DNA of 64,000 nt from Paenibacillus sp. cl123 (GTDB taxonomy: Bacteria > Bacillota > Bacilli > Paenibacillales > NBRC-103111), in assembly GCF_900101595.1 (NCBI RefSeq), contig NZ_FMYY01000001.1:566585-630584 (forward strand), in the 5' to 3' direction. Positions 11,007 to 38,831 of the stretch are shown here, one piece after another (the stretch's first letter is position 1; every line of letters starts with the position of its first letter). Position numbers and translations under genes: made by a program. The notes under the pieces were generated by a model that saw only the letters and a list, made by a program, of their open reading frames with translations, was not told the DNA's origin and made no database searches.

Positions 11007-11067
11007 TTGAAATATATCGAAACTTGTAGTAATATCGTATACTAAACCGATTTAGTAAACCGGTTTA
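11007..11067 (+). promoter_or_regulatory. SigA promoter with tandem LacI-type operators
   Basis: TTGAAA (11007-11012) and TAATAT (11030-11035) have a 17-base spacer. Two LacI-family palindromes follow immediately: CTAAACCGATTTAG (11042-11055) and TAAACCGGTTTA (11056-11067), both with the central CG typical of LacI/GalR sites. They cover the expected transcription start. The LacI gene at the far end of this operon is the obvious regulator. A leader of about 230 bases follows, with GCGCTTTC (11102) able to pair with GAAAGCGC (11155). Confidence 0.8.
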
Positions 11068-11274
11068 TTATACGAGGTCGCAAATAATGGGGTCCATGAG
11101 TGCGCTTTCTATCGTTCGCATTTCAATTTATTGACGGTTGAGATAACAAGACCCGAAAGCGCTCTTCCAAGTTGGCGAGTTGTTGGAGGTGGTTTCTGAA
11201 GCTTTAACATGTAGTTAGCGTTCTTGGTTGTTGAAATTATTTATCGTATTCATTAAAGGGAGGATATACAAAGA

Positions 11275-12594
11275 ATGAAAATGTCCAAATTGGCAAAACC
11301 GCTCGTCCTGATGACAGCGTTATCCATGTTTCTTGCCGCATGCGGCGGCGGAAATAGTTCAAGCGGCTCGGCGGGTCAAGCATCTGGCGGGAATGCCGAT
11401 GATTCGAGCAAGCCGGTTAAAATTACGTTTTTGAATTCAAAAGGGCAAATCCAAGCGGCAGCTGAGGAAGCTGCAAAAACGTTCACTGCGGCAAATCCTA
11501 ATATTACAGTGGAAGTATTAACGGTAGCAAGCGGTCAATCTCCCTTTGAGAGAGCGTCGGTGTTATATGCTTCAGGGAATCCTGCGACACTGAATATGCT
11601 TGATGCAGGAGACATTGTTAAATTCAAGGATAAGGCACTTGATTTGTCCTCTGAGGCATGGGTAAAAGACCTCGCGCAGCCTAATCAGCTTGACGGAAAA
11701 ACATTAGCTTTCCCGTTCGCAGTAGAAGGCTACGGACTTGTTTACAATAAAAAGATTCTTGATAAGGTAGCTGGCGGCACATTCGATCCGTCCACAATCA
11801 ATACTACCTCTGCACTGGAGGAGCTTTTTAAGAAGATTGAGGCAGACGGAACTGCGCCGTTAATCATCGGATCCATGCCATGGTCATTAGGCAATCATTT
11901 TCTGCCGATTGCATACGCTTCTCAACCGAAAGGCGACGTCAGCGCGTTTTTGAGCGGTTTAAAAACCGGCGAGGTAAAACTGGCAAGCAATGCTCCGTTC
12001 AATGGCCTGATTGACACTCTGGAAATGATGAAAAAATATAACAAAGGAAAAAATGATCCTCTTGTTGTAACGGCTGATGATATTGCAGCGGCAGTGGCGA
12101 AAGGCGAAGTCGCGGTCACCTTTAACGGGAACTGGATGATCAGCCAGCTGGATAGCGTTCAACCGAAAGGGGAATACGGTTTCATGCCGGTTCCAATTAG
12201 CAACACTGCAGACGATAAAAATAATGCTTCAATTCCGGTAGGAGCAACCAAACAAATATTTATAGACAAATCGGTAGCTACGGAAGCTCAACAGGAAGCA
12301 GCTAAGAAATTTTTGAATTGGATCGTTTATGAGGCGGCCGGGCAAGATTTCTTGGTAAATAAAGCAAGCATCCTTCCAGCATTCAAAAATATTAAACTGG
12401 AGCCGACAGATTCGCTCGCCAAATCAATCAAAACCTATATGAATGCGGACAAAACGCTTCCATTTGCCGCCAACTATATACCGGGTGATCATTCCAAAAT
12501 GATTGGTGCTTCTATGCAAAAGTATCTTGGAGGACAATCTGATCGAGCCGGGTTGGTAGCTGAAATTGAAGGGTACTGGAAGAATGTAAAGTAG
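11275..12594 (+). CDS. Sugar ABC transporter substrate-binding lipoprotein
   Basis: 439 residues. The signal peptide ends in the lipobox LAAC followed by GGG and a Ser/Gly-rich linker, so it is membrane-anchored. The remainder is a family 1 solute-binding fold (MalE/UgpB-like). The start follows AAAGGGAGG. It is the first gene of a LacI-controlled operon with two permeases, a sugar kinase and the HPS/PHI enzymes. Its ligand is therefore presumably the sugar that those enzymes consume. Confidence 0.92.
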   Translation: MKMSKLAKPLVLMTALSMFLAACGGGNSSSGSAGQASGGNADDSSKPVKITFLNSKGQIQAAAEEAAKTFTAANPNITVEVLTVASGQSPFERASVLYASGNPATLNMLDAGDIVKFKDKALDLSSEAWVKDLAQPNQLDGKTLAFPFAVEGYGLVYNKKILDKVAGGTFDPSTINTTSALEELFKKIEADGTAPLIIGSMPWSLGNHFLPIAYASQPKGDVSAFLSGLKTGEVKLASNAPFNGLIDTLEMMKKYNKGKNDPLVVTADDIAAAVAKGEVAVTFNGNWMISQLDSVQPKGEYGFMPVPISNTADDKNNASIPVGATKQIFIDKSVATEAQQEAAKKFLNWIVYEAAGQDFLVNKASILPAFKNIKLEPTDSLAKSIKTYMNADKTLPFAANYIPGDHSKMIGASMQKYLGGQSDRAGLVAEIEGYWKNVK

Positions 12595-12616
12595 TTGGCT
12601 TTTCAATTTTTAAAAC

Positions 12617-12656
12617 GATGGATGAGAGGCGGGTTGCTTCCATCCATCTGCTTTTT
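12617..12656 (+). terminator. Intra-operon hairpin after the binding-protein gene
   Basis: GATGGATG pairs with CATCCATC across a 16-base loop, then TGCTTTTT. This is a weak terminator or mRNA-stabilising hairpin, of the kind often seen between a binding-protein gene and its permeases. It would let the receptor be made in excess. Confidence 0.55.
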
Positions 12657-12687
12657 GCAGCTCATATAGAAGAGGAGTAGAGTCCAA

Positions 12688-13572
12688 TTGATCTCCGAAA
12701 AAAGCTTGGCTCGCAAAATAGGTAATCAACTTTTTTATACGGGACCTACGGTCTTGATCTTTTTCATGGTCATGATTGTCCCATTTTTGTATGGCATTTA
12801 TTTAACGTTTTTTAAATGGGACGGTATTTCTTCCGATATGCCGTTTGTCGGATTGGACAACTATCTCGGAGTTTTTCGTGACGCGAAATTTTGGAGCTCG
12901 ATGACAATTACGATAAAATATGTGATCGCGACCGTGTTTCTAATAAATGCAGTCGGCTTTTTACTGGCTTTTTTGGTAGTAACAGGAATCAAACGTCAAA
13001 ATTTCTTTCGTGCGGCATTTTTTACGCCCAGCTTGATTGGCGGTTTGGTTCTGGGATTTCTGTGGCAATTTCTATTCAATAACTTTTTCGTGAACATCGG
13101 TAATCAATACGGAATCGCCATGTTAAGCAAATCCTGGCTAGGTAATCCGGATAAAGCGTTTTGGGCCTTGGTCGTAGTAACCGTATGGCATTATGCAGGC
13201 TATATGATGGTCATTTTTATCGCAGGTCTCATGAATGTTCCCCAAGATATTTTGGAGGCGGCTACGATCGACGGTACAAGCAACTGGCAAAAGCTCATCC
13301 ACATGATACTGCCCCTGATGGTTCCTTCATTTATTATAACGATCTTCCTTTCTTTGCAGAGAGGCTTTATGGTTTATGATTTGAACTACTCCTTAACGGG
13401 AGGCGGGCCTTTTGAAAGCACCGTGTTTGTTTCTATGCATGTATTCGATAAAGCCTTCAGAAGCTATGATTACGGCATGGGACAGGCGGAGGCGATTGTG
13501 CTGTTTGTCATTGTTGCTTCTGTTACGATGCTGCAGGTGTATTTCAGCAAGAAGAAGGAGGTCGAAATTTAA
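12688..13572 (+). CDS. Sugar ABC transporter permease
   Basis: 294 residues, six membrane segments. The EAA loop is LEAATIDGTSNWQKLIHMIL. It uses a TTG start behind AGAGGAG (10-base spacing); no ATG is available nearby. It overlaps the next permease by one base (TAATG), so the two are translationally coupled. The pair forms the channel for the preceding receptor. No ATPase gene is in the operon. Confidence 0.92.
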   Translation: MISEKSLARKIGNQLFYTGPTVLIFFMVMIVPFLYGIYLTFFKWDGISSDMPFVGLDNYLGVFRDAKFWSSMTITIKYVIATVFLINAVGFLLAFLVVTGIKRQNFFRAAFFTPSLIGGLVLGFLWQFLFNNFFVNIGNQYGIAMLSKSWLGNPDKAFWALVVVTVWHYAGYMMVIFIAGLMNVPQDILEAATIDGTSNWQKLIHMILPLMVPSFIITIFLSLQRGFMVYDLNYSLTGGGPFESTVFVSMHVFDKAFRSYDYGMGQAEAIVLFVIVASVTMLQVYFSKKKEVEI

Positions 13573-14414
13573 TGGGGTTCCGTCTTTTTGTTCGGAAGAC
13601 ATCGGTTTACTTCATCATGATAGCGGCGCTGATTTTGAGCATGTTTCCTTTTGCTATGCTTCTAATCAACTCCTTCAAAACGAATGCGCAAATTTTGGCT
13701 TCGCCCTTTAGTCTGCCTGGAACTATAGATTTCACGAATTTTAAAGTGGCCATTCAACAAATGAATTATTTTAGAAGCTTTATCAACACAATCATCATTA
13801 CTTTCAGCAGTGTTGCCATCATTTTGCTGTTTTCGTCTATGACCGCCCATTATTTTGTAAGAAATAAATCCAAGCTGAATAACCTGTTATTCATGCTGAT
13901 GGTGTCGTCGATGATTATTCCATTTCAATCGATTATGATACCACTGGTCAGTGTTTATGGAAAAATGCTGGGCTGGATAAATGTAATGCCTCAACCCACT
14001 TTAATATTCATGTATATCGGATTTGGGAGTCCGCTGGCTGTATTCATTTATCATGGATTTATCAAAAGTCTCCCGTTTGAGCTGGAACAAGCCGCGTATA
14101 TAGACGGATGCAGTCGCCGTCAAACGTTTTTTAAGATCGTATTGCCTATCCTGAGTCCAACTTCAGTGACCATCGCAATCCTGCATATTTTATGGATCTG
14201 GAACGATTTTTTATTGCCGTTGATTGTTCTTCAAAATGCTGGAAAAGAGATGCTTACTTTGCCGCTGGCAATTCAAGTGTTTAAAGATATTTATTCTACC
14301 GATTACGCCAAATTTTTGCCTGGAATCTTATTAATTACACTGCCTGTGTTACTCATTTATGTATTTGCGCAAAGATATATCATTCAAGGAGTTACGCAGG
14401 GGGCCGTTAAGTAA
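13572..14414 (+). CDS. Sugar ABC transporter permease
   Basis: 280 residues, six membrane segments. The EAA loop is LEQAAYIDGCSRRQTFFKIV. Its ATG shares a base with the stop of the previous permease and sits behind AAGGAGG. It belongs to the MalG-like half of the channel. Confidence 0.92.
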   Translation: MGFRLFVRKTSVYFIMIAALILSMFPFAMLLINSFKTNAQILASPFSLPGTIDFTNFKVAIQQMNYFRSFINTIIITFSSVAIILLFSSMTAHYFVRNKSKLNNLLFMLMVSSMIIPFQSIMIPLVSVYGKMLGWINVMPQPTLIFMYIGFGSPLAVFIYHGFIKSLPFELEQAAYIDGCSRRQTFFKIVLPILSPTSVTIAILHILWIWNDFLLPLIVLQNAGKEMLTLPLAIQVFKDIYSTDYAKFLPGILLITLPVLLIYVFAQRYIIQGVTQGAVK

Positions 14415-14470
14415 AAGTAAAAATCAAGAAGCTACTGTACGACAATTTCGCATAGAAGAGAGAGATCATC

Positions 14471-15430
14471 TTGGATAAGAGCTTGGATGTCATAACAATA
14501 GGAGACGCCATGGTGACGATGAACCCTAAAAGTAAAGGGCCGTTGCGCTATGTTGCCGAATTCGAGCGCAGGGTTGGCGGAGCCGAATTGAATCTGGCAA
14601 TCGGTTGTGCTCGATTAGGGCTGAGAACGGCATGGATCAGCCGGCTTGGAGATGATGAGTTCGGCAGATTCGTGTACAATTTTGCAAGAGGCGAAGGTAT
14701 CGATGTATCCAATGTCAAGCTCATGGAGGGGTACGCGACATCCGTCAATTTCAAAGAGATACGGGAAGATGGTGCGGGACGAACGTTCTACTACAGGATG
14801 AATTCACCTACACTTACGTTAAATGCGGAGGATTTACCGGCGGATGATATTAAGAAATCCAGGATTCTTCATATAACCGGCGTATTCTCAGCAATCCGTC
14901 AAAACGATATGTCCGTCATTCACAAGGCGATAGAGATAGCGAAAGCAAACAATGTTTTAGTAGCATTCGATCCTAACATTCGGTTCAAATTATGGTCAAA
15001 AGAAGAAGCAAAGCACTGCCTTACGCATTTGCTGCCCTACGTCGACATTATGCTTACCGGGGAAGAGGAAGCGGAATTTTTGCTTGGCGTCCGTGATTTG
15101 GATAAAATGATATCGAAATTTACCGAATATGGTATAGGTTGCGTCGCAATTAAACAAGGATCTCAAGGCAGCGTAGGTTATTATGAAGGACGAAAAGTAA
15201 GCAAGCCTGCCATAAAAGTAAGTACGGTCGCAGATACGGTTGGTGCTGGTGACGGATTTGACGCAGGCTTCCTGCATGGAATTATTAATGGCTGGCCGCT
15301 TGAAAAAACGCTAACCTTTGCGAATCTGGTAGGCTCGATGGTTGTCAGCGTAGCGGGAGATAACGAAGGTCTTCCCTACTATGAAGAGGTTATGCAAAAG
15401 CTTGGGGTAAGCGAGTTTATCGAAAGATAA
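14471..15430 (+). CDS. PfkB-family sugar kinase
   Basis: 319 residues. The PfkB signature is DTVGAGDGFDAGF, holding the catalytic Asp and anion hole, near residues 257-269. The N-terminal half has the RVGGAELNLAIGCARLG substrate-lid pattern of 2-keto-3-deoxygluconate and fructokinase-like members. A TTG start follows a GA-rich site. In this operon it would phosphorylate the imported sugar and feed the isomerase/synthase pair encoded next. It could be a ketohexose or keto-deoxy sugar kinase; the sequence alone does not decide the substrate. Confidence 0.9.
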   Translation: MDKSLDVITIGDAMVTMNPKSKGPLRYVAEFERRVGGAELNLAIGCARLGLRTAWISRLGDDEFGRFVYNFARGEGIDVSNVKLMEGYATSVNFKEIREDGAGRTFYYRMNSPTLTLNAEDLPADDIKKSRILHITGVFSAIRQNDMSVIHKAIEIAKANNVLVAFDPNIRFKLWSKEEAKHCLTHLLPYVDIMLTGEEEAEFLLGVRDLDKMISKFTEYGIGCVAIKQGSQGSVGYYEGRKVSKPAIKVSTVADTVGAGDGFDAGFLHGIINGWPLEKTLTFANLVGSMVVSVAGDNEGLPYYEEVMQKLGVSEFIER

Positions 15431-15442
15431 GAGGGTGCTAAC

Positions 15443-16072
15443 ATGAAGCTGCAATTGGCATTGGACCGGTTGACGCGGCAGCAATGTGTGGAGATCGTCG
15501 AAGAGGTGAAGGATCTCATCGACATCATCGAGATTGGAACCGGAGTTATTAAGCAATACGGAGTAGGACTCATCTCGGATATGAAGGAAAGATACGGCGA
15601 TAAGTTAATTTTGGCTGATATGAAAACATGTGATGCCGGAAGACACGAGACGATACAAGCATTATCCGCGGGAGCCGACATTTCGACGGTTATGGCATTT
15701 TCAGATGCAAAGACGATCAAGGATGCATTGGAAGCAGCCGGTTCAATGGATAAACAAGTGATGGTCGATTTATTAGGGATCGAAGACACGAACGCCATCG
15801 CCCGGTTATACGATCTGGGAGCCCGTCTTTTCTCCGTACACATTGGAAAGGATATGCAAGAGCATCAAGGAGCAGGACTAAAGGCGGCAGAAATCATCTC
15901 GTTCCTGCATACGCTCCATGGCGTCGAGTTCGCATATGCGGGGGGAATAAATGCGGATTCGATAGGACAAGTCGTCGCCTATAAACCAGATATTGTCATT
16001 GTTGGGAGTGCGATCACGGGGGCCGTTCATCGAAGAGAAGCAGCTCATACTATCAGAGAGAAGATGATTTGA
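15443..16072 (+). CDS. hxlA: 3-hexulose-6-phosphate synthase
   Basis: 209 residues, a compact orotidine-decarboxylase-fold TIM barrel of the usual HPS length. The motif LQLALDR carries the first Asp, IEIGTGVI the Glu, and ADMKTCDAG matches the HPS form (ADLKTMDAG). The related 3-keto-L-gulonate-6-phosphate decarboxylases usually have ADAKIADAG. HPS reversibly joins formaldehyde and ribulose 5-phosphate to D-arabino-3-hexulose 6-phosphate. It is immediately followed by PHI, as in known hxlAB pairs. There is no HxlR-type activator here, and the link to a sugar importer and kinase is unusual. Confidence 0.87.
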   Translation: MKLQLALDRLTRQQCVEIVEEVKDLIDIIEIGTGVIKQYGVGLISDMKERYGDKLILADMKTCDAGRHETIQALSAGADISTVMAFSDAKTIKDALEAAGSMDKQVMVDLLGIEDTNAIARLYDLGARLFSVHIGKDMQEHQGAGLKAAEIISFLHTLHGVEFAYAGGINADSIGQVVAYKPDIVIVGSAITGAVHRREAAHTIREKMI

Positions 16073-16076
16073 TATC

Positions 16077-16631
16077 ATGAAAAATTTGTTTGTTCAAATG
16101 AATAACGAGGTTGCCGCTGTATTGAACCGGGTGAGTGAAATCGAATTTACGGCTTTTGGTGAAGCAATTAAAGGAGCTTCACGGATTTTCGTTGCAGGCG
16201 AAGGCCGGTCCGGGCTAATGGGAAAAGCTTTCGCCATGCGTCTTATGCATGCGGGTTACAGCGCATTTGTGGTCGGAGAAACGATAACGCCGAGTATTGG
16301 AGCTGACGATGTGCTGGTGGCGATTTCTGGTTCAGGAACTACTGAAATCGTTCATTTATACGCCAATCAAGCGAAAAAAGTCGGAGCATCCGTCGTGCTT
16401 ATCACCACCAATCGGAACTCGAAAATTGCGGAGTATAGCGACCTAACCCTAAGAATTCCCGCTGCAACCAAGCTTAGGCTGGAAGATGAGCCGCCAACGA
16501 TTCAGCCGCTTGGCAATCAATTCGATCAAAGCTTGCATATGCTGCTTGACGCCGTGATTATCGGCATTTTAAATGAAACGGACGAGGACTCTTTTCAAGA
16601 GATGACTCGACGTCATTCGAATTTGCAATGA
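16077..16631 (+). CDS. hxlB: 6-phospho-3-hexuloisomerase
   Basis: 184 residues, a single SIS domain. Typical PHI motifs are present: GEGRSGLMGKAFAMRLMH, VVGETITP, AISGSGTTE, and QPLGNQFDQS near the end. The enzyme interconverts D-arabino-3-hexulose 6-phosphate and fructose 6-phosphate. It starts 4 bases after hxlA. With HPS it could either assimilate formaldehyde or run in reverse to make ribulose 5-phosphate and formaldehyde from a hexose phosphate. Confidence 0.9.
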   Translation: MKNLFVQMNNEVAAVLNRVSEIEFTAFGEAIKGASRIFVAGEGRSGLMGKAFAMRLMHAGYSAFVVGETITPSIGADDVLVAISGSGTTEIVHLYANQAKKVGASVVLITTNRNSKIAEYSDLTLRIPAATKLRLEDEPPTIQPLGNQFDQSLHMLLDAVIIGILNETDEDSFQEMTRRHSNLQ

Positions 16632-16640
16632 GGTGAACAG

Positions 16641-18278
16641 ATGAAACTATATAATAATATAGAGTTACCGGAAGAGTGGCCGCCCAACTACAAAGAGACC
16701 ACGCTGGATAAACCGCTGCCTTCCGATTACAAGGCTTACTGGCCGGAGACTGTAAATATATCGATAGGAAGACAATTGTTCGTTGATGAGTTTGTCGTTG
16801 AGGACACCAATTTAACAACAAAATACCATCAGCCTGTTCTTATGGATCAACCCGTATTTGAACCGGAAACGCCGCTTGAACTGAACGATGGTTATTGCAC
16901 GTGCGCATGTCCTTTTAATGACGGCATTTTTTACGATGATACCGACAAGAAGTTTAAAATGTGGTATCAGGCAGGGTGGTTCGATGGGGTCGGATGTGCG
17001 GAAAGCGAGGATGGAATCCACTGGAAGCGGTTGTCAGAGCTTTTTCCGGACAGACAGGATGACAGGGTGATTCCCTATGAAGCCGGCGCGCTCCGCGACG
17101 GATCTGCCGTTTGGATCGATTACGAGGCTGCAGATATAAGCGAGAAATATAAAATGTTAGTATTTTTTCGAAAATACGATTTTGAAGTGAAATATTATCA
17201 CCGGATGCCGAAGCATTTTCATGACATTCCGGGATCTGTTCCGCCGCTTGAAACCATCAAATTGTATAAATCGGCAAACGGCATCGATTGGACCGAGATA
17301 GGGGAAACGACTCTCGCCGGAGACAACTCCACATTCTTCCACAACCCATTTACAAAAAAATGGGCTTTCAGCTTGCGAACATTCTCGACTTTAGATAGTC
17401 GGGTAAGGACAAGAGGTTATATTGAAACGGAAGACTTTTTCAAAGGTTCAAAGTGGAAGAGTGAGGATGTCCGCTTCTGGTCACGAACCGATATTTATGA
17501 TTCGCCGGATCCGAAGTTAGGTTTCTATACCCAGTTATATAATCTTGACGCAACCCCCTATGAAAGTATTATGTTAGGCGTATTCAGCGTATTTATGGGT
17601 CCGCCAAACCCCATTTGCGAGCTTACAAAAATGCCCAAAGTTAATGACTTGAAATTGGCTTACAGCAGAGACGGTTTTCATTGGGATCGACCGACTCATG
17701 ACAATTTTATTTCGTCATCCCGTGAAGCGGGGAGATGGGATTATGGATATGCGCACTCACCGAACGGCGTCTGCCTCGTTGTAGGAGATGAACTATTTTT
17801 TTACGTTTCCTTTTTCTCCGGTCAATCGCCTAATTTCGGGACCCATGAATATTCGGGAGGCAGCTTAGGGCTGGCCAAGCTAAGAAGAGACGGTTTTGCC
17901 TCATTGACCGATGAAGGGAAGGGCGGGTATGTTGTAACCAAAAAGCTTGAATTTAACGGTAACTATTTGTTCGTGAACGTTGATTCGAGTGAGGGTGCAA
18001 TCTATGCTGAAATCTTGGACGAAGAGTCCAACGTCATTCCTGGGTTTTCCAAATCGGAGTGCATCCCGGTTGCAGCTGACAGCACAAAAATACAAATCAG
18101 GTGGAACAATCGACAATTGGAAGAGTTGGACCTCAAGGTCATACGGATTCGTTTTCATTTGGAGAATTCGCACTTGTACTCTTTCTGGATTTCGGAGGAT
18201 CCGGAAGGGCACAGCAAAGGTTATATGGCTGCCGGCGGCCCCTTTTTTCATCATGGGATCGATAGAAAAGTAGATTAA
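16641..18278 (+). CDS. Putative glycosidase-like beta-propeller protein (GH32/43-like)
   Basis: 545 residues, no signal peptide, so cytoplasmic. The N-terminal part (about 36-60) has RQLFVDEFVVEDT followed by YHQP. This resembles a family of uncharacterised proteins often labelled glycosyl hydrolase family 32-like. Several blade-like repeats follow: FKMWYQAGW with SEDGIHWKR (about 110-130), YKSANGIDWTE (about 213) and LAYSRDGFHWDR (about 340). The last ~130 residues look like a separate beta-sandwich. It starts 9 bases after hxlB and closes the operon. It may release the monosaccharide that the kinase phosphorylates (inference). The catalytic residues cannot be named with confidence. Confidence 0.7.
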   Translation: MKLYNNIELPEEWPPNYKETTLDKPLPSDYKAYWPETVNISIGRQLFVDEFVVEDTNLTTKYHQPVLMDQPVFEPETPLELNDGYCTCACPFNDGIFYDDTDKKFKMWYQAGWFDGVGCAESEDGIHWKRLSELFPDRQDDRVIPYEAGALRDGSAVWIDYEAADISEKYKMLVFFRKYDFEVKYYHRMPKHFHDIPGSVPPLETIKLYKSANGIDWTEIGETTLAGDNSTFFHNPFTKKWAFSLRTFSTLDSRVRTRGYIETEDFFKGSKWKSEDVRFWSRTDIYDSPDPKLGFYTQLYNLDATPYESIMLGVFSVFMGPPNPICELTKMPKVNDLKLAYSRDGFHWDRPTHDNFISSSREAGRWDYGYAHSPNGVCLVVGDELFFYVSFFSGQSPNFGTHEYSGGSLGLAKLRRDGFASLTDEGKGGYVVTKKLEFNGNYLFVNVDSSEGAIYAEILDEESNVIPGFSKSECIPVAADSTKIQIRWNNRQLEELDLKVIRIRFHLENSHLYSFWISEDPEGHSKGYMAAGGPFFHHGIDRKVD

Positions 18279-18349
18279 GAAAATGAATTATTGTAAGATT
18301 GGATTAAAAATTTGAATCAGGAATCTATCCGGAAAATGGATTTCAGGGG

Positions 18350-19375
18350 GTGACTGCCATTACTAAAAGCAAGAAAGCTACACTCCAAGATGTTGCGAAT
18401 ACCGCCAAAGTATCGAAAAGCACCGTGTCGCAGTATCTCAATCAAAGATACGAATATATGTCGACAGAGACAAAAATGAGAATTGAGCAGACGATAGAAG
18501 CACTCGAGTACCAGCCCAATATTATAGCAAGAAGTTTAAAACAAAAAACAACAGCAACGATCGGAGTTATTGTAGCCAATTTGCTGCATCGATTTTCGAC
18601 AGAGATAACCAGGGCGATAGAAGACTACTGTCATGCGCATGATTATCATGTCATTGTTTGTAATACGGATGAAGACCCGTCCAAGGAAAAGAAATATATC
18701 GACATGTTAAAAGCTAAGCAAGTAGACGGATTGATTATTATACCTACCTGCCAGAACGATGAGGTTTACCGCCAGCTCGTGGACGAACAGTACCCTGTAG
18801 TTTTTTTAGACCGAAAAGTGGATGGTCTGCCGATCAACATGGTTGTGATGGATAACGTTCATTCCGCATACACATGCACTTCTCATCTTATAAGTCAAGG
18901 CCATAAAGAAATTGCCATCATCACGCCACCTCTTAATATAAGCACGCGTTCCGAACGAATTCAAGGATACAAAGCCGCTCTTCTGGACCACGGAATTAAG
19001 TTTTCCGACCAGTATGTAAGAAGCGTGAATCTAAGTGAAGTTGCTCGTCAGATGAATGAGCTGTTTCAAATGAAAAAACCTCCAACGGCTTTGTTAGCCG
19101 GGAACGACTTGGTTCTGATGGAGGTTTTGCCCTATCTGTTAAAAAACAACATTCGTATTCCGGATGAATTGGCGGTAGCTGTGATCGATGATGTCAGCTT
19201 TGCCGATTTTGTCAGCCCTCCTCTGACCACTTTCAAGCATCCGGCAGTAGAAATGGCCAATAAAGCCGCCGAATTAATGCTTGGCCAAATCAAATCGAGA
19301 GAACTGCCGGAAATAGGCTCGAATATCATTTCCTTTAATGGGAGATTACAAGTAAGAAAGTCGAGCGGGGGTTAG
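18350..19375 (+). CDS. LacI-family transcriptional regulator
   Basis: About 340 residues. The DNA-binding helix-turn-helix and hinge are at the N-terminus (ATLQDVANTAKVSKSTVSQY; later YQPNIIARSL). A periplasmic-binding-protein-like effector domain follows (IGVIVANL; VAVIDDVSFADF). The GTG used here overlaps an excellent ribosome site AGGGGGTGA. That site is better placed for an ATT codon at 18359 (5-base spacing), so the true start may be the rare AUU. It lies 71 bases after the operon it probably represses through the two TAAACCGRTTTA-type palindromes near 11042-11067. Confidence 0.9.
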   Translation: MTAITKSKKATLQDVANTAKVSKSTVSQYLNQRYEYMSTETKMRIEQTIEALEYQPNIIARSLKQKTTATIGVIVANLLHRFSTEITRAIEDYCHAHDYHVIVCNTDEDPSKEKKYIDMLKAKQVDGLIIIPTCQNDEVYRQLVDEQYPVVFLDRKVDGLPINMVVMDNVHSAYTCTSHLISQGHKEIAIITPPLNISTRSERIQGYKAALLDHGIKFSDQYVRSVNLSEVARQMNELFQMKKPPTALLAGNDLVLMEVLPYLLKNNIRIPDELAVAVIDDVSFADFVSPPLTTFKHPAVEMANKAAELMLGQIKSRELPEIGSNIISFNGRLQVRKSSGG

Positions 19376-32352: not shown

Positions 32353-32374
32353 CTTCGGAAAGAGGGCTTTGATC

Positions 32375-33868
32375 ATGCTTGAGCCAGGCGGTAAAGCTCT
32401 GTCTGCTATCGCCCGATGGGTGTCGCCCGCATGGGCGGCCGCCGCCGGGGTGTTCTTAATAACGGTCTTGGCGCTGTTCGTTCCTCCTTTTATCGGTATG
32501 GCGGATAACGGAGACTATTTTCGGATACTGTACGGAAACGGGCTGTATTTCAGTGAACCGGACTATAACAGCCAGTACCTCGGCTACTTCGTAAAGCAGT
32601 ACGGAATCTTGCAGTATTACAATGAAAACGCCGCCGCGCTGTTTTCGTCGCAGTCCTTGTTTATTCGTCTGGCGCTGCTGCTGAATGTTTGGCTGTATGA
32701 CCACCAGGTGTTCGATCTGCGGGTTCAGGCCGTTATTTACACCTTGATGTACACGGCGGCCGTCTACTTGCTGGTCGAAGCGGTGACGTGGAAGCTCTCC
32801 GCGAAGCTTGGGTATCCGATTGCGGCAGCAGCGGTGTTTATGTTCGGCGACACGGGGTATACGGCGTACTTCAACTCGTTTTACAGCGAGGCGCTTGTGC
32901 TGGTTATGGCGATGCTTTTATTTGCTTCGGGCTTGCTGCTGTACCGGCGAAGGTACAATGATTATGCGCTGCTGGCTTTGTTTGCGGCAAGCGCCCTGCT
33001 TCTGACCGCCAGCAAGCAGCAGAACGCGCCTGTCGGAGCTATTGTCGCTGTGGCGGGAGCCGTCCTTGTCTTCATACGGACGGGCAGGGCATACCGGATT
33101 CTCGTAACCGGCGTGCTGGCGGGCCTGCTGGCCGCAGGCGTCGGCATCTATGCGCTGATCCCGAAGGAGTTTGTCAATATCAATAAATATCATGCGATGA
33201 CGCGCGGCGTCCTGATGGAATCCCGTGATCCCGAAGCTGCGCTTAGATCCTTCGGCATCGACGAGCAGTTCGCCGCGCTTAACCGCAGCATTTACTATAA
33301 GCCGTACTCGACGGTGGATGTCGACTCCGAGCTGCTGGAGCAAGCGTTCTATAGCAAGTACGGCTTCGGCTCCATTCTTGGGTATTATGTTACGCATCCC
33401 GATCAGGCCGGCCAGATGCTGAATCTGGCTGCGCGCAGCGGATTTACGATACGGCCTCCGGCGATGGGCAATTACGAGCGGACAGAAGGCAAGCCGTTCG
33501 GGGCCCAGACGACCTTCTTCTCGGGCTACAGCCTGCTGAAGGATGCGCTCGCTCCGAAAACTTTCGGCTTCGTCATCATCTGGATGACGGTTGTTCTGGG
33601 AATTTATATGCCGTCCTTTATAGCGGCTGTGCGAGCCAGGCGGGCGAGATCGATATGGCGGCTTCCGCTGGTCGCGATGATGATGATGATCGGGCTGTCC
33701 GGCATATTCGTTTCGATTATCGGGGCGGGCGACGCGGATTTGTCCAAGCATGAATTTCTGTTTACAGCAAGCTTCGATCTCGTTACTTTCGTGATGGCGG
33801 CTGATTTGTGGGGACGCCGGCTATGGGGGGAGAGGACGGTCGAAGGCGCCGACGAGCCGGCCGAATAA
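32375..33868 (+). CDS. Polytopic membrane protein, WsfD-like glycosyltransferase
   Basis: 497 residues with about ten membrane helices and a conserved extracytoplasmic loop after helix 1 (GMADNGDYFRILYGN). Such Asp-containing first loops are typical of GT-C lipid-sugar-dependent transferases. It fits the WsfD-type family found in Gram-positive glycan loci. The ATG is preferred since GAAAGAGGG lies 8 bases upstream, while the TTG two codons earlier is too close. It would transfer a lipid-linked sugar onto the polymer outside the membrane (inference). B. subtilis ydaJKLMN has no such gene. Confidence 0.7.
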   Translation: MLEPGGKALSAIARWVSPAWAAAAGVFLITVLALFVPPFIGMADNGDYFRILYGNGLYFSEPDYNSQYLGYFVKQYGILQYYNENAAALFSSQSLFIRLALLLNVWLYDHQVFDLRVQAVIYTLMYTAAVYLLVEAVTWKLSAKLGYPIAAAAVFMFGDTGYTAYFNSFYSEALVLVMAMLLFASGLLLYRRRYNDYALLALFAASALLLTASKQQNAPVGAIVAVAGAVLVFIRTGRAYRILVTGVLAGLLAAGVGIYALIPKEFVNINKYHAMTRGVLMESRDPEAALRSFGIDEQFAALNRSIYYKPYSTVDVDSELLEQAFYSKYGFGSILGYYVTHPDQAGQMLNLAARSGFTIRPPAMGNYERTEGKPFGAQTTFFSGYSLLKDALAPKTFGFVIIWMTVVLGIYMPSFIAAVRARRARSIWRLPLVAMMMMIGLSGIFVSIIGAGDADLSKHEFLFTASFDLVTFVMAADLWGRRLWGERTVEGADEPAE

Positions 33869-33884: not shown

Positions 33885-35459
33885 ATGGACGTCAAGAAAT
33901 GTTGGCCGATTCTGATCATAGCCGGTGTGCTGGCTGTATTTCCGCTGTCCGCGGTCACGACTGCGCGCAGCGTCCCGGCGACTGCCGGTGCATCGCCCAG
34001 CGTGCTTCTGATCTATGACAGCCTGGGGCGGGGCACGCCGAAGGAAGGCAATATGGAAGCGCTGCAGCGTCTTCTCGCCGCATTCGGAGCCGAGGTGACG
34101 GTCACGACCTTCGAACGTTATGCGCCTGGGACATTAAGCCGGTACGAGTATGCGGTAGCGGTACGAAACGCCCGTGATCTTCCAAGCTCGTATCCCGAGT
34201 TTGAGCACGACTTCACCTCATATGCTGGCCGGTATATGCATGTAGGGATGCATCTGCCGGAGCGGGTGGTCGAAGCGTTGGAGCTTAGAGAGGAGCAAGC
34301 GAGCGGCGGTTCGTTGACGCTGACGGTCGGGCAGCTCTCCGAGGCATCTATCCGGGTGGAAAACATCGGATGGATCAGGCAGGCGGCAGGAGAGTCTTAC
34401 GGCAGCTGGAGCTCATCCGCAAGCGAACGGCCGGCGCCGTTCGGCGTAATGAACGGGGGGTACGCTTACATCCCCTATGTGGTCCCCGGCAACCTGACCG
34501 AGCTGGGAAGCTCGTATGTGCTGAAGGACTGGCTGTCTGTGCAAGGGCAAAGCCGATATTACGCCGCATTTCGCGAAATATATCCTTTCTCCGATCTGGA
34601 TCGTTTGAAGCGGCTGTCGGACCGGCTGTACGAAGCGGGAATTCCGTTCATTGCCAGCGTCCAGCCTGTGCTCAGCAATCTCGACTATCCGGCGGTGCAA
34701 AGATATTTGGAGGCTCTGAAGCATATCCAGTCCAGGAACGGCAGCATCGTCGTCAATGCGCCTGTCGTCGCCTCGACGATCAGCCAGGATATTACGACGC
34801 TGAAGGATGAGCTGAGCGCGTTCGTGGACGCCTTGGCCGATTATGGCATCGCGCCGCTCGGGATCGGGGCCGAGATGTACTGGACTTACGACCGCCATTA
34901 TAAGGAGAACGCGCTGTCCTCCTTCGACTCGATCCTGATGTTCCCCAACAAGCGGATTATGCACCGGGAGCGGACGGACACGTCTCAGCCCTTCGCTTCT
35001 TCCTTGTACACGCTGTCTCTCGAAGACTTGCAGAGCTTTCGGGTAAATGGGAAGGTGCCGGAGCCGCTGCCCATGGATACGGCGCTGCTGCTCGAGCTGC
35101 CGGGCAGCGAGAAGCAGATGGAGGAGACCGTGCAGGCGCTGCGCAGCGACTGGAGGGCGTTTGCCGACTACAAGACCGACGCCCATACGGTGCGTACGGC
35201 TGCGAACGAGATCCGCTCCAGAGGCGGACTGCTGCAGGTGAACGGCCGGACGCTGGCGCTTGGCAGCGCGGCCGCGAGCATTGAAGAGCAGCATACGTAC
35301 ATACAAGAGGGACCGAAGAGCTTCGCTTCCTTGTTCACGGTACAGAATAATATTTTCATCGTGCTGATCGCGCTCACACTCTTGATATTCGGCGGGTTCC
35401 TGATCCTCGGATACCGGCTGTACAAGCGCAAATATATGCATCAGGAGAAACGCCCATGA
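33885..35459 (+). CDS. DUF2334 protein (YdaL-like), membrane-anchored
   Basis: 524 residues. It has an N-terminal signal or anchor (IIAGVLAVFPLSAV), then an extracellular domain starting SVLLIYDSLGRGTPKEG, and the DUF2334 polysaccharide-deacetylase-like region (YYAAFREIYPFSDLDRL; GIPFIASVQPVL). A C-terminal membrane helix (about 488-510) and a basic tail follow. Its fold predicts carbohydrate deacetylase activity, but the metal-binding residues cannot be assigned safely. Its stop overlaps the next start (ATGA). Confidence 0.8.
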   Translation: MDVKKCWPILIIAGVLAVFPLSAVTTARSVPATAGASPSVLLIYDSLGRGTPKEGNMEALQRLLAAFGAEVTVTTFERYAPGTLSRYEYAVAVRNARDLPSSYPEFEHDFTSYAGRYMHVGMHLPERVVEALELREEQASGGSLTLTVGQLSEASIRVENIGWIRQAAGESYGSWSSSASERPAPFGVMNGGYAYIPYVVPGNLTELGSSYVLKDWLSVQGQSRYYAAFREIYPFSDLDRLKRLSDRLYEAGIPFIASVQPVLSNLDYPAVQRYLEALKHIQSRNGSIVVNAPVVASTISQDITTLKDELSAFVDALADYGIAPLGIGAEMYWTYDRHYKENALSSFDSILMFPNKRIMHRERTDTSQPFASSLYTLSLEDLQSFRVNGKVPEPLPMDTALLLELPGSEKQMEETVQALRSDWRAFADYKTDAHTVRTAANEIRSRGGLLQVNGRTLALGSAAASIEEQHTYIQEGPKSFASLFTVQNNIFIVLIALTLLIFGGFLILGYRLYKRKYMHQEKRP

Positions 35460-36722: not shown

Positions 36723-38831
36723 ATGAACAATCGAATGCTGATGATGGTGGGCGTCATCTGCGTTTGCCTGCTGCTGCCTTGGCCGATTCCTGCCTGGGCG
36801 GAGGAAGGAGGGGCAGCCGGCAGCAGCTACGGTACGCCGCTCGGAGAAGCTTCGGTGCAGGGGAGATACGGCGCAAGTCAGCAGTATTTCCGGATCGAGG
36901 ACTATTGGAAGGTGGAGAAGGTCGATATTGTTCTCGACTACAAAGCTTCTCCGCTCACTCAAAGCGAGCTGTCCAGCATGACGCTGCTGCTAAACGGCAC
37001 CCCTTTCCATTCCTTTCGCCCTGCCGCCGGCAACGGGGACAAGCAGCAGGTGAGAACAGCCGCGCCGGTTCCGCTGCTGACTGCGGGCGTCAACACATTG
37101 ACGATTCAAAGCAATCTGGAAACGTCCGATCCGAAGCTGAATCTGCAATTGGCCTGCTTGCCGACAGACAGCCGGGACAGCTGGTTTCAGGTGCTTGGAA
37201 GCTCTGAAGTGACCGTGAGCTACAGCCAGGAGGCCATGAAAAACAGCATCCGCGACTTTAACCGGCATTTTACCGGGATTGATACGGTCAGCAAGGGGCA
37301 AAATGCCGTGGCCGTCCCGGCATCAGCCGAAGCGGAGGAGCTGGAAGCGGCCGTCTATGCATTGTCCGGGTTTGCGAAGCGCAATGAATTAAAGGAACGG
37401 ATGATTCCGCTCGTCGAATACGGAGCGGACCAACTGAAGGACAAACGGGCCGTGGTGCTCGTTTCCTTGTTCGATCGTTTGCCTGCTGAGCTGAAGGCAC
37501 AGCTGGAGACGGACGCGCTGCAGGAGAAGGCGCTGCTCCAACTGGTGAATATGAACGCCCAGCCTACGCTGGTCGTGACCTCGCGCAATGCGGAGCTCCT
37601 GATTCAGGCAGGGCGGCTTGCTGCCAATCAGATGCTGCTCGATCAGATTGAGGCGGGCTCCAAAGTCGTGGATGCCGCAACAGCGGTGCAGACGCCTGCC
37701 GTCAGCATCAGCCGCAACATCAGCCTGACCGAGACCGGAGACAAGCTTACGGGTCCGCAGCACCGCGAGAAGTCTTATTTTATTTCACTGCCGGGGAATC
37801 GGTCTATTGCGGACGCCAGCAAGCTCAGCTTGGACTTCCGCTACGCGAAAAATCTGGATATGAGCCGTTCCATGGTGACGGTATATGCGGATAAAACGCC
37901 GATCGGCAGCAAGCGGTTGTCCTCCGAGCTGGCGGATGGGGATCATCTCACGCTGCCGGTTCCGAAAAACCTGCAAATATCGGGCAACTTCACGATAACG
38001 GTCGCCTTCGAGCTGGAGCTGGACGGCTATACGGGATGTATGGAGAATCAGGATCAGATGCCATGGGCGTTCATCGATAAACAATCCTTGCTGCAGCTCA
38101 ATACGAAGGACAGGGCCGAGCTGCTGCTGAACAACTACCCGTATCCGTTTCTCCGGGACGGGAGCTACAACCAGGTGGCCGTCGTCCTGCCGGACAAGCG
38201 CGATCCTTATTTATATGCATCGTTAACGAATTTGTTCAACCTGCTCGGCCAATACGCTCAGACCAATACGGGGGAGGTACGGTTTTTCCCGGGGAACGTG
38301 AGCGCGGCAGAGCTGAAGGGACGGCAGATCATCGCCATCGGCGGCTACATGGACAACCAGGTGATCCGCGACAGCAATGACAAGCTGTATTTCCGCTACG
38401 ACACGGCCGGAGGAGGATTTGTATCCAATGAAAAGCTGAGCATCGAAGCGGAATACGGTAAGCGGATCGGCGCGCTGCAGCTGATCGAATCTCCTTACGA
38501 TCCGGGCAACGGGCTGCTGGCGGTAACGGGGGCCGGACCGCAGTACGCCTACTTGGCCTCCAAGCTGGTGGCTGCGGAAGCCATGCTCTGGAAAGTATAC
38601 GGCGACGGCGTGGTGGCGGATGCGGACGGGAAGGTGCAGGCATTCCGCTTCAAGAAGCTGGCGGAGCCCGAAGCCCCCTCGGTCGTCGGCGAAGTGCTGG
38701 GACGCAAGGATGTGCTGAGCTTTACGGTAGCTTCGCTGCTGGTGGCTCTGCTGGTGCTGGTCTCATTGATCATGATGCTGCGCAAGCATACCACGAAGAA
38801 GTCAAGCCGCGGACGGAGGCGGGGACGATGA
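36723..38831 (+). CDS. BcsB-like exopolysaccharide synthase subunit (YdaN-like)
   Basis: 702 residues with a signal peptide, a long extracytoplasmic part and a C-terminal membrane helix (VASLLVALLVLVSLIMML) with a Lys/Arg-rich tail. Carbohydrate-binding and ferredoxin-like domains of BcsB are suggested by VDIVLDYKASPLTQSE and FTGCMENQ-type motifs (here YTGCMENQDQMPWAFID). It should cap the GT2 channel outside the membrane. It overlaps the next gene by ATGA. Confidence 0.85.
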   Translation: MNNRMLMMVGVICVCLLLPWPIPAWAEEGGAAGSSYGTPLGEASVQGRYGASQQYFRIEDYWKVEKVDIVLDYKASPLTQSELSSMTLLLNGTPFHSFRPAAGNGDKQQVRTAAPVPLLTAGVNTLTIQSNLETSDPKLNLQLACLPTDSRDSWFQVLGSSEVTVSYSQEAMKNSIRDFNRHFTGIDTVSKGQNAVAVPASAEAEELEAAVYALSGFAKRNELKERMIPLVEYGADQLKDKRAVVLVSLFDRLPAELKAQLETDALQEKALLQLVNMNAQPTLVVTSRNAELLIQAGRLAANQMLLDQIEAGSKVVDAATAVQTPAVSISRNISLTETGDKLTGPQHREKSYFISLPGNRSIADASKLSLDFRYAKNLDMSRSMVTVYADKTPIGSKRLSSELADGDHLTLPVPKNLQISGNFTITVAFELELDGYTGCMENQDQMPWAFIDKQSLLQLNTKDRAELLLNNYPYPFLRDGSYNQVAVVLPDKRDPYLYASLTNLFNLLGQYAQTNTGEVRFFPGNVSAAELKGRQIIAIGGYMDNQVIRDSNDKLYFRYDTAGGGFVSNEKLSIEAEYGKRIGALQLIESPYDPGNGLLAVTGAGPQYAYLASKLVAAEAMLWKVYGDGVVADADGKVQAFRFKKLAEPEAPSVVGEVLGRKDVLSFTVASLLVALLVLVSLIMMLRKHTTKKSSRGRRRGR

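Follow-up and report, generated by a model that had tools for sequence, protein, structure and literature searches.

Why an operon for the uptake of a sugar should contain genes named for the fixation of formaldehyde is the question raised by an eight-gene operon of Paenibacillus sp. cl123. The operon lies in a stretch of 64,000 nucleotides (contig NZ_FMYY01000001.1, positions 566,585 to 630,584), here called the window. It encodes an ATP-binding cassette (ABC) importer, a PfkB-family kinase, relatives of the ribulose monophosphate (RuMP) enzymes HPS (HxlA) and PHI (HxlB), a propeller protein termed GHx and a LacI-family regulator. In canonical loci the usual role of hxlAB is the detoxification or assimilation of formaldehyde. 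All eight genes, described in the initial annotation as an importer operon with PfkB, HPS, PHI, a propeller-like protein and LacI, are confirmed at their places, closely spaced on the forward strand (Table 1). From comparison with related operons, we propose with a probability of about 0.58 that the operon serves to import and break down a 2-keto sugar acid in glycosidic form, the likeliest acid being 2-keto-D-gluconate, by way of a PHI-like and HPS-like isomerase-decarboxylase pair.

In the proposed pathway, the ABC importer would bring in the glycoside and GHx would hydrolyse it in the cytoplasm, freeing the 2-keto sugar acid, which the PfkB kinase would phosphorylate at C6. PHI moves the carbonyl between C3 and C2 of hexulose 6-phosphate; the PHI-like enzyme would shift it from C2 to C3, yielding 3-keto-6-phosphogluconate. 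Both HPS and 3-keto-L-gulonate-6-phosphate decarboxylase (KGPDC) proceed via the 1,2-enediolate of a pentulose 5-phosphate. Via the same enediolate, the HPS-like enzyme would cleave the C1-C2 bond to give D-ribulose 5-phosphate and CO2, the latter leaving rather than formaldehyde because C1 is a carboxylate. The net conversion would be redox-neutral: the one that KguD and 6-phosphogluconate dehydrogenase achieve together, here with no redox cofactor. The LacI protein would bind the tandem operators and be released by the acid.

HPS and PHI genes in sugar-acid operons

The window HPS belongs to a divergent group, which leads to operons composed of LacI, a TIM protein, PfkB, a major facilitator superfamily (MFS) or ABC transporter, HPS and PHI. 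The TIM protein has a single sequence match in the PDB, PA2260, which we take to be KguE, and a plasmid record calls its Klebsiella homologue 'Epimerase KguE'. With the kgu operon of Pseudomonas and Klebsiella (PtxS, KguE, KguK, KguT, KguD; in Klebsiella the order is PtxS-KguE-KguK-transporter-reductase), the system shares a LacI-family regulator, the AAACCGGTTT operator core, a dedicated importer and, in the sister operons, a PfkB 2-ketoaldonate kinase. It differs in having HPS-like and PHI-like genes instead of KguD and, in the window, also in lacking KguE and having an ABC importer and GHx. No KguD-type reductase was found among the eight operon genes (Pfam/NCBIfam), and the cl123 genome has no match to KguE at E <= 1e-15, or at E <= 1e-12 with a second query.

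Among 398 Bacilli genomes, 18 contain KguE, at 19 loci, 17 of which have an adjoining KguK; the KguE-like loci L108 and L111, without it, are not among the 17. HPS and PHI are present and a KguD match is absent in 16 of these 17 loci (stretches of 9.4-13.5 kb), while the remaining one, L106, has a KguD-like gene (34% identity) and an IlvD/Edd-family dehydratase, and no HPS or PHI. Four of 104 Paenibacillaceae genomes contain KguE, and all four have HPS and PHI with it and no KguD match. Sixteen plasmid records match KguE and six were examined. In three, from Lactobacillales, an HPS-family gene and hxlB come after the genes for KguE, a transporter and a kinase, without KguD; two from Klebsiella contain KguD and neither HPS nor PHI, and one from L. 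salivarius (24% identity) has none of the three. Because KguE loci carry HPS and PHI without KguD, and L106 is the reverse, the pair occupies the place of KguD. The search for KguD relied solely on BLAST matches to the gene of K. pneumoniae (E <= 1e-8), so that a very divergent reductase could escape it. In four Bacilli genomes KguE and KguK are encoded in one open reading frame (ORF) of 567-659 amino acids (L102:6302-8236, L112:6353-8056, L113:6364-8274 and L114:6234-8213), an arrangement suggesting that KguE acts in direct partnership with the kinase.

A search of 398 Bacilli genomes with a near relative of the window HPS gave matches in 17, cl123 included, and the 16 other loci were read. 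In three of these (L129-L131) HPS and PHI are of the kgu type; L129 and L130 have a KguT-type transporter, L130 and L131 a KguK-type kinase, and none of the three a KguE match. The other 13 are operons with LacI, HPS and PHI, here called TRAP-type, since DctP/DctM-type TRAP genes are present in 12 of them (not L128). A kinase of the window type is present in ten of the 13; L118, L120, L121, L124 and L125 all have PHI, LacI and kinase. These same five and L128 also contain UxuA, UxuB, an Ldh_2 dehydrogenase and 2-keto-3-deoxy-6-phosphogluconate (KDPG) aldolase together. The transporters of the related operons include KguT-type MFS proteins, a gluconate:proton symporter (the record's name) and DctPQM TRAP systems. 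Ribulose 5-phosphate, named as a product in the initial annotation, is likely to be formed: it fits the rpiA gene adjoining HPS in L126, L127 and L140 and the transaldolase and transketolase within the L104 operon.

The search for the same gene order elsewhere, which had been suggested at the outset, found the whole operon again in P. ginsengihumi (L021, GHx 79% identical) and in genome G460 (L031, GHx 91%); the L031 HPS protein is named as from Paenibacillus hamazuiensis, and the L021 PfkB gene was seen in a stop-to-stop scan. P. senegalimassiliensis (L022) has a variant with PfkB, a sucrose-type phosphotransferase system (PTS) IIBC component (TIGR01996, 556.1 bits, just below the cut-off of 559.3), GHx (70%), LacI (52%), HPS (39%) and PHI (49%). 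Together with the window, all four readable loci with a GHx of at least 70% identity thus contain HPS, PHI, LacI and PfkB. Importer-linked HPS and PHI genes are not peculiar to this genome: they occur in many Bacilli and, in another clade, on Salmonella plasmids. On the latter (L079:5048-8636 and L080:4901-8636) a glucose-type PTS IIBC gene, an extra protein, hxlB and hxlA are consecutive; the extra protein is annotated as of the glucose-6-phosphate isomerase family in L080 and as a cytoplasmic protein in L079, which also has an SgrR-type regulator.

Protein groups, signature residues and operators

The window HPS scores 238.9 bits with the HxlA model TIGR03128, above its cut-off of 200, and is under the cut-offs of the KGPDC models (PRK13306, 101.4 against 250; PRK13305, 79.0 against 294). 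A second HPS-PHI pair is located on contig C15 of the same genome; its HPS is 38% identical to that of the window, and the pair is followed by a small regulator, HxlR-like by eye. Among the matches listed for the family, canonical HPS proteins score about 286-303 bits and the divergent group, including the window, about 210-239 bits. In a tree of 64 rows (rooted at the midpoint, with a bootstrap not fully settled), a single group with support 96/87 unites the 42 HPS rows from GHx, kgu-type, TRAP and Lactobacillales operons, the module rows. Canonical Paenibacillaceae HPS, M. gastri HPS, Salmonella PTS-linked HPS and KGPDC all lie outside it. The window, L021 and L031 proteins join the TRAP HPS and the L022 protein joins the kgu HPS, so two changes are needed to explain the association with GHx.

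Position 9 of HPS is arginine throughout the module rows (42 of 42) and never in the other 22 rows. Met84 is present in 42 of 42 and Lys136 in 34 of 42 module rows, and neither in any of 16 compared rows; this comparison leaves out the six rows of an HPS-like group of 155-172 bits, which were kept in the tree and in the residue table. An HPS copy of genome G466, split over two frames, is outside every count. Lys136 alone, tried as a signature, was dropped when it failed in 8 of 42 with more rows, and for this reason Arg9 and Met84 were chosen. Lys136 of the window aligns with an arginine in KGPDC entry 1xby, which we take to be Arg139, and with a valine in 1xbx, presumably a mutant. A regular expression finds lysine at this position in 115 of the nearest 120 of 1768 HPS relatives; of the other five, three gave no match to the expression (two have the lysine on reading) and two have other residues. 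A third group of HPS-like proteins, from L070-L074 (155-172 bits to TIGR03128) and L078 (112 bits), is on a different branch of the tree, and no PHI match was found in its stretches. At several of these loci (L070:8508-9206 and L071-L074) the gene is accompanied by LacI, a short-chain dehydrogenase/reductase, a TIM protein of 300 amino acids and ABC genes.

The window PHI likewise passes the HxlB model TIGR03127 (218.3 bits against 160). Positions 145, 150 and 154 are Leu, Asp and His in all 37 module rows, the window among them (PHI of L133-L137 and L140 excluded), against Met, Glu and Leu in 36 of 36 canonical rows (Salmonella and Gluconobacter excluded, and at least one gene counted twice, L035 being the same place as L076). 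Compared with HPS and PHI of the RuMP pathway, the window pair is homologous, adjacent and above the model cut-offs, and the proposed reactions involve the same bond and the same carbonyl positions. It differs in Arg9, Met84 and mostly Lys136 (HPS) and in Leu145, Asp150 and His154 (PHI), in having a LacI instead of an HxlR-type regulator and in standing in sugar-acid operons.

The ula and sgb (yia) pathway uses KGPDC, and sgbH has a TRAP importer and an Ldh_2 dehydrogenase as neighbours, company that is also found in several TRAP operons here. Like KGPDC, the HPS-like protein is an enzyme of the OMPDC superfamily, for which decarboxylation of a 3-keto hexonate 6-phosphate to a pentulose 5-phosphate is proposed. 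Unlike KGPDC, it falls in a tree group of its own and below the model cut-offs, its 3-keto acid would be supplied by a SIS isomerase, and its expected product is D-ribulose 5-phosphate, where that of KGPDC is L-xylulose 5-phosphate.

The best profile scores of the window PfkB are to the 2-keto-3-deoxygluconate (KDG) kinase and IolC models, under both cut-offs. Its best PDB match, 1v19, is a KDG kinase, presumably from T. thermophilus. It is 49-62% identical to the window-type kinases of the ten TRAP-type operons and 38% identical to K. pneumoniae KguK, to which the L022 kinase is 54% identical. According to an excerpt of PMC6651773, C. necator KguK phosphorylates four of the five keto acids assayed and not a single one of 11 sugars; the same passage states that KDG kinases, too, accept 2-ketogluconate.

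At E <= 0.001 GHx matches no Pfam or NCBIfam family, and at E <= 1 no PDB sequence. Its fold is similar to GH32, GH43 and GH130, among the families given by the fold search; in contrast to the five-blade-propeller glycosidases and phosphorylases of these families, it has 545 amino acids, with extra strands beyond the propeller. It is probably cytoplasmic, as no signal peptide is seen by eye. At E <= 1e-60, GHx is present in 5 of 104 family genomes, cl123 included, and otherwise in none of 398 class and 398 phylum genomes; a search of viral_contigs gave no relative. GHx proteins of 66-79% identity from other sources also exist. In Bacteroides, L025 (700-17010) contains three GHx relatives (33-38%) with neighbours that were named by eye: SusC/SusD-like genes, an MFS transporter, a DapA/NanA-like aldolase and an AGE-like epimerase. 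These neighbours hint that GHx relatives may act on glycosides of ulosonic acids.

The tandem LacI palindromes noticed earlier upstream of the operon are present as two 12-bp sites, an imperfect palindrome at 11043-11054 (TAAACCGATTTA) and a perfect one at 11056-11067 (TAAACCGGTTTA), the latter containing the AAACCGGTTT core as in the PtxS site. In an excerpt of PMC11678583, the PtxS operator is given as TGAAACCGGTTTCA and its effector as 2-ketogluconate. The 25-base operator pattern has no second place within 3 mismatches in the 7.27-Mb genome (reversed control, 0 matches), and shuffling gives an expectation of 0.00 occurrences in the window. With tandem sites defined as each within 2 mismatches of TAAACCGGTTTA and starting 13 bp apart, they are found in 26 of 27 module loci with a window-type LacI (the exception is L103), in none of the 16 module loci with other LacI types (L067, L090-L092, L096-L101, L104, L107, L109 and L129-L131) and in none of 19 control loci (312,163 bases). 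Of the four Paenibacillaceae kgu-type loci, L065, L068 and L069 have regulators 49-55% identical to the window LacI, and L067 has one that is 38% identical; K. pneumoniae PtxS is 29% identical to the window protein. A cre-like sequence, CGAAAGCGCTCT, was noted by eye at 11150-11170, between the operators and the first gene, and possibly serves catabolite repression.

Weighing the proposed pathway

Gene content, protein grouping, common operators, the exchange with KguD and the signature residues were computed; from these we infer the activities, the identities of acid and glycoside and the effector. In favour of the degradation of a 2-keto sugar acid glycoside, L022 combines a GHx of 70% identity with a sucrose-type PTS and a KguK-type kinase, and a separate canonical-type HPS-PHI locus exists in the cl123 genome. 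Several points weigh against it. The window HPS and PHI exceed the HxlA and HxlB cut-offs and HPS falls below those for KGPDC; HPS groups with TRAP-operon and not with kgu HPS; and Lys136, aligned with the KGPDC arginine, is missing from eight module proteins. With no kguE in the window and a kinase only 38% identical to KguK, the acid may differ from 2-ketogluconate. No natural glycoside of 2-ketogluconate was identified, and the KDPG aldolase in many operons means that 2-keto-3-deoxy acids may be co-substrates. No kinase was found in the stretches read of L126, L127 and L140, all from one genus, nor any module gene in the flanks (L138, L139) in G235, one of these three genomes. Other LacI types, without tandem operators, are found at the kgu-type loci L067, L104, L107 and L109, at the Lactobacillales-type loci and at L129-L131. 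Finally, GHx is not tied to the module, as relatives of about 40-47% identity (L032, 45%; L033, 40%) and three from Bacteroidales (L023-L025, 37-38%) are in stretches without HPS and PHI.

More tentatively, and at somewhat less than an even chance, Firmicutes may possess a shortcut, redox-neutral as a whole, that leads from 2-keto-6-phosphogluconate by way of the 3-keto isomer to ribulose 5-phosphate and CO2 and is made up of enzymes that databases name after formaldehyde. The window operon would be its glycoside version, with a propeller glycosidase of an undescribed kind acting on a 2-ketogluconate glycoside, possibly a sucrose-like one. No account of such an isomerase-decarboxylase pathway was found in the open-licence PMC literature, among the matches listed; a regulon table for Bifidobacterium, in an excerpt of PMC4746261, lists an 'HxlR' regulator with 'Hexulose'.

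The alternative that survives best, although unlikely, is that the same isomerase-decarboxylase chemistry serves another hexulosonate (for example from an aldonate or uronate, or of the isoascorbate type), with 2-ketogluconate used only in the KguE/KguK operons. It is favoured by the closer relation of the window kinase to the TRAP-operon kinases than to KguK, by the uxuA, uxuB, Ldh_2 dehydrogenase and KDPG aldolase genes of six of the 13 TRAP-type operons and by the grouping of the window HPS. However, L022 couples GHx to a KguK-type kinase, the window-type LacI and its operators, starting 13 bp apart, are common to many kgu-type operons, and rpiA beside HPS points to D-ribulose 5-phosphate and hence to the D-gluco series.

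The initial annotation had suggested a true HPS-PHI pair working in reverse, splitting an imported and phosphorylated hexose or 3-hexulose into ribulose 5-phosphate and formaldehyde. The model scores and the position of the genes within an importer-linked operon agree with this, and the catabolic direction is retained from the comparison of related operons, as is import and phosphorylation of the substrate, now probably a glycoside. There is no support for formaldehyde as a product, nor for a substrate that is a hexose or a 3-keto or branched sugar: the related operons have acid-type importers, 2-ketoaldonate kinases and KguE. The one-carbon product to be expected is CO2. Since HPS and PHI moreover substitute for KguD, a canonical-type pair exists elsewhere in the genome and the signature residues differ from the canonical ones, reverse HPS-PHI action is decidedly improbable. 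The readings with hamamelose, a 3-hexulose or a methyl-glycoside were made unnecessary by the link to the kgu and TRAP operons; a literature search for hamamelose gave nothing on such an operon, among the matches listed. That the pair detoxifies or assimilates formaldehyde or methanol freed from a methylated or hydroxymethylated glycoside is suggested by the HxlA/HxlB family names and is very improbable, given that no oxidase, methanol dehydrogenase or monooxygenase was found among the eight operon genes (Pfam/NCBIfam), that LacI has the operators of sugar-acid operons and that an HPS-PHI pair exists at a second locus. A formaldehyde reading of the window operon is therefore unlikely.

If degradation of a 2-keto sugar acid by this pair is correct, many Bacilli genes named as formaldehyde-fixing HPS and PHI are misnamed, and one-carbon pathways deduced from these genes share the error. 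There would also be a sugar-acid route that arrives at the intermediate of 6-phosphogluconate dehydrogenase with no need of a redox cofactor, and a clear case of an aldolase group that became a decarboxylase via a common enediolate. GHx would be a candidate for a new glycosidase family.

Layout of the operon and neighbouring genes

Table 1. Features of the window operon, with positions in the window.
Feature	Position	Strand	Basis or remark
Promoter-like hexamers TTGAAA-17-TAATAT	11007..11035	+	just upstream of operators; weak, 9/12 matches
Predicted tandem LacI operators TAAACCGATTTA and TAAACCGGTTTA	11043..11067	+	starts 13 bp apart
ABC sugar-binding lipoprotein (SBP_bac_1/8)	11275-12594	+	family match
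ABC permease A	12688-13572	+	family match
ABC permease B	13572-14414	+	family match
PfkB kinase, 2-keto(-3-deoxy)aldonate kinase group	14471-15430	+	profile and PDB matches, identity to relatives
HPS-like protein, proposed 3-keto-6-phosphogluconate decarboxylase (R9, M84, K136)	15443-16072	+	TIGR03128
PHI-like SIS isomerase, proposed 2-keto/3-keto-6-phosphogluconate isomerase (L145, D150, H154)	16077-16631	+	TIGR03127
GHx, five-blade-propeller protein, 545 amino acids, proposed sugar-acid-freeing glycosidase	16641-18278	+	fold comparison
LacI-family regulator	18350-19375	+	family match

A promoter scan gave 20 sites, against a mean of 17.3 (s.d. 5.4) after shuffling, i.e. no excess. No gene for an importer ATPase was found among the eight operon genes (Pfam/NCBIfam); ABC sugar importers of Firmicutes usually share one ATPase. 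Elsewhere in the window, positions 36723-38831 encode a protein of the cellulose synthase subunit BcsB type (Pfam BcsB), upstream of which two ORFs without a Pfam match (32369-33868 and 33885-35459) are located, possibly forming an exopolysaccharide cluster with it.

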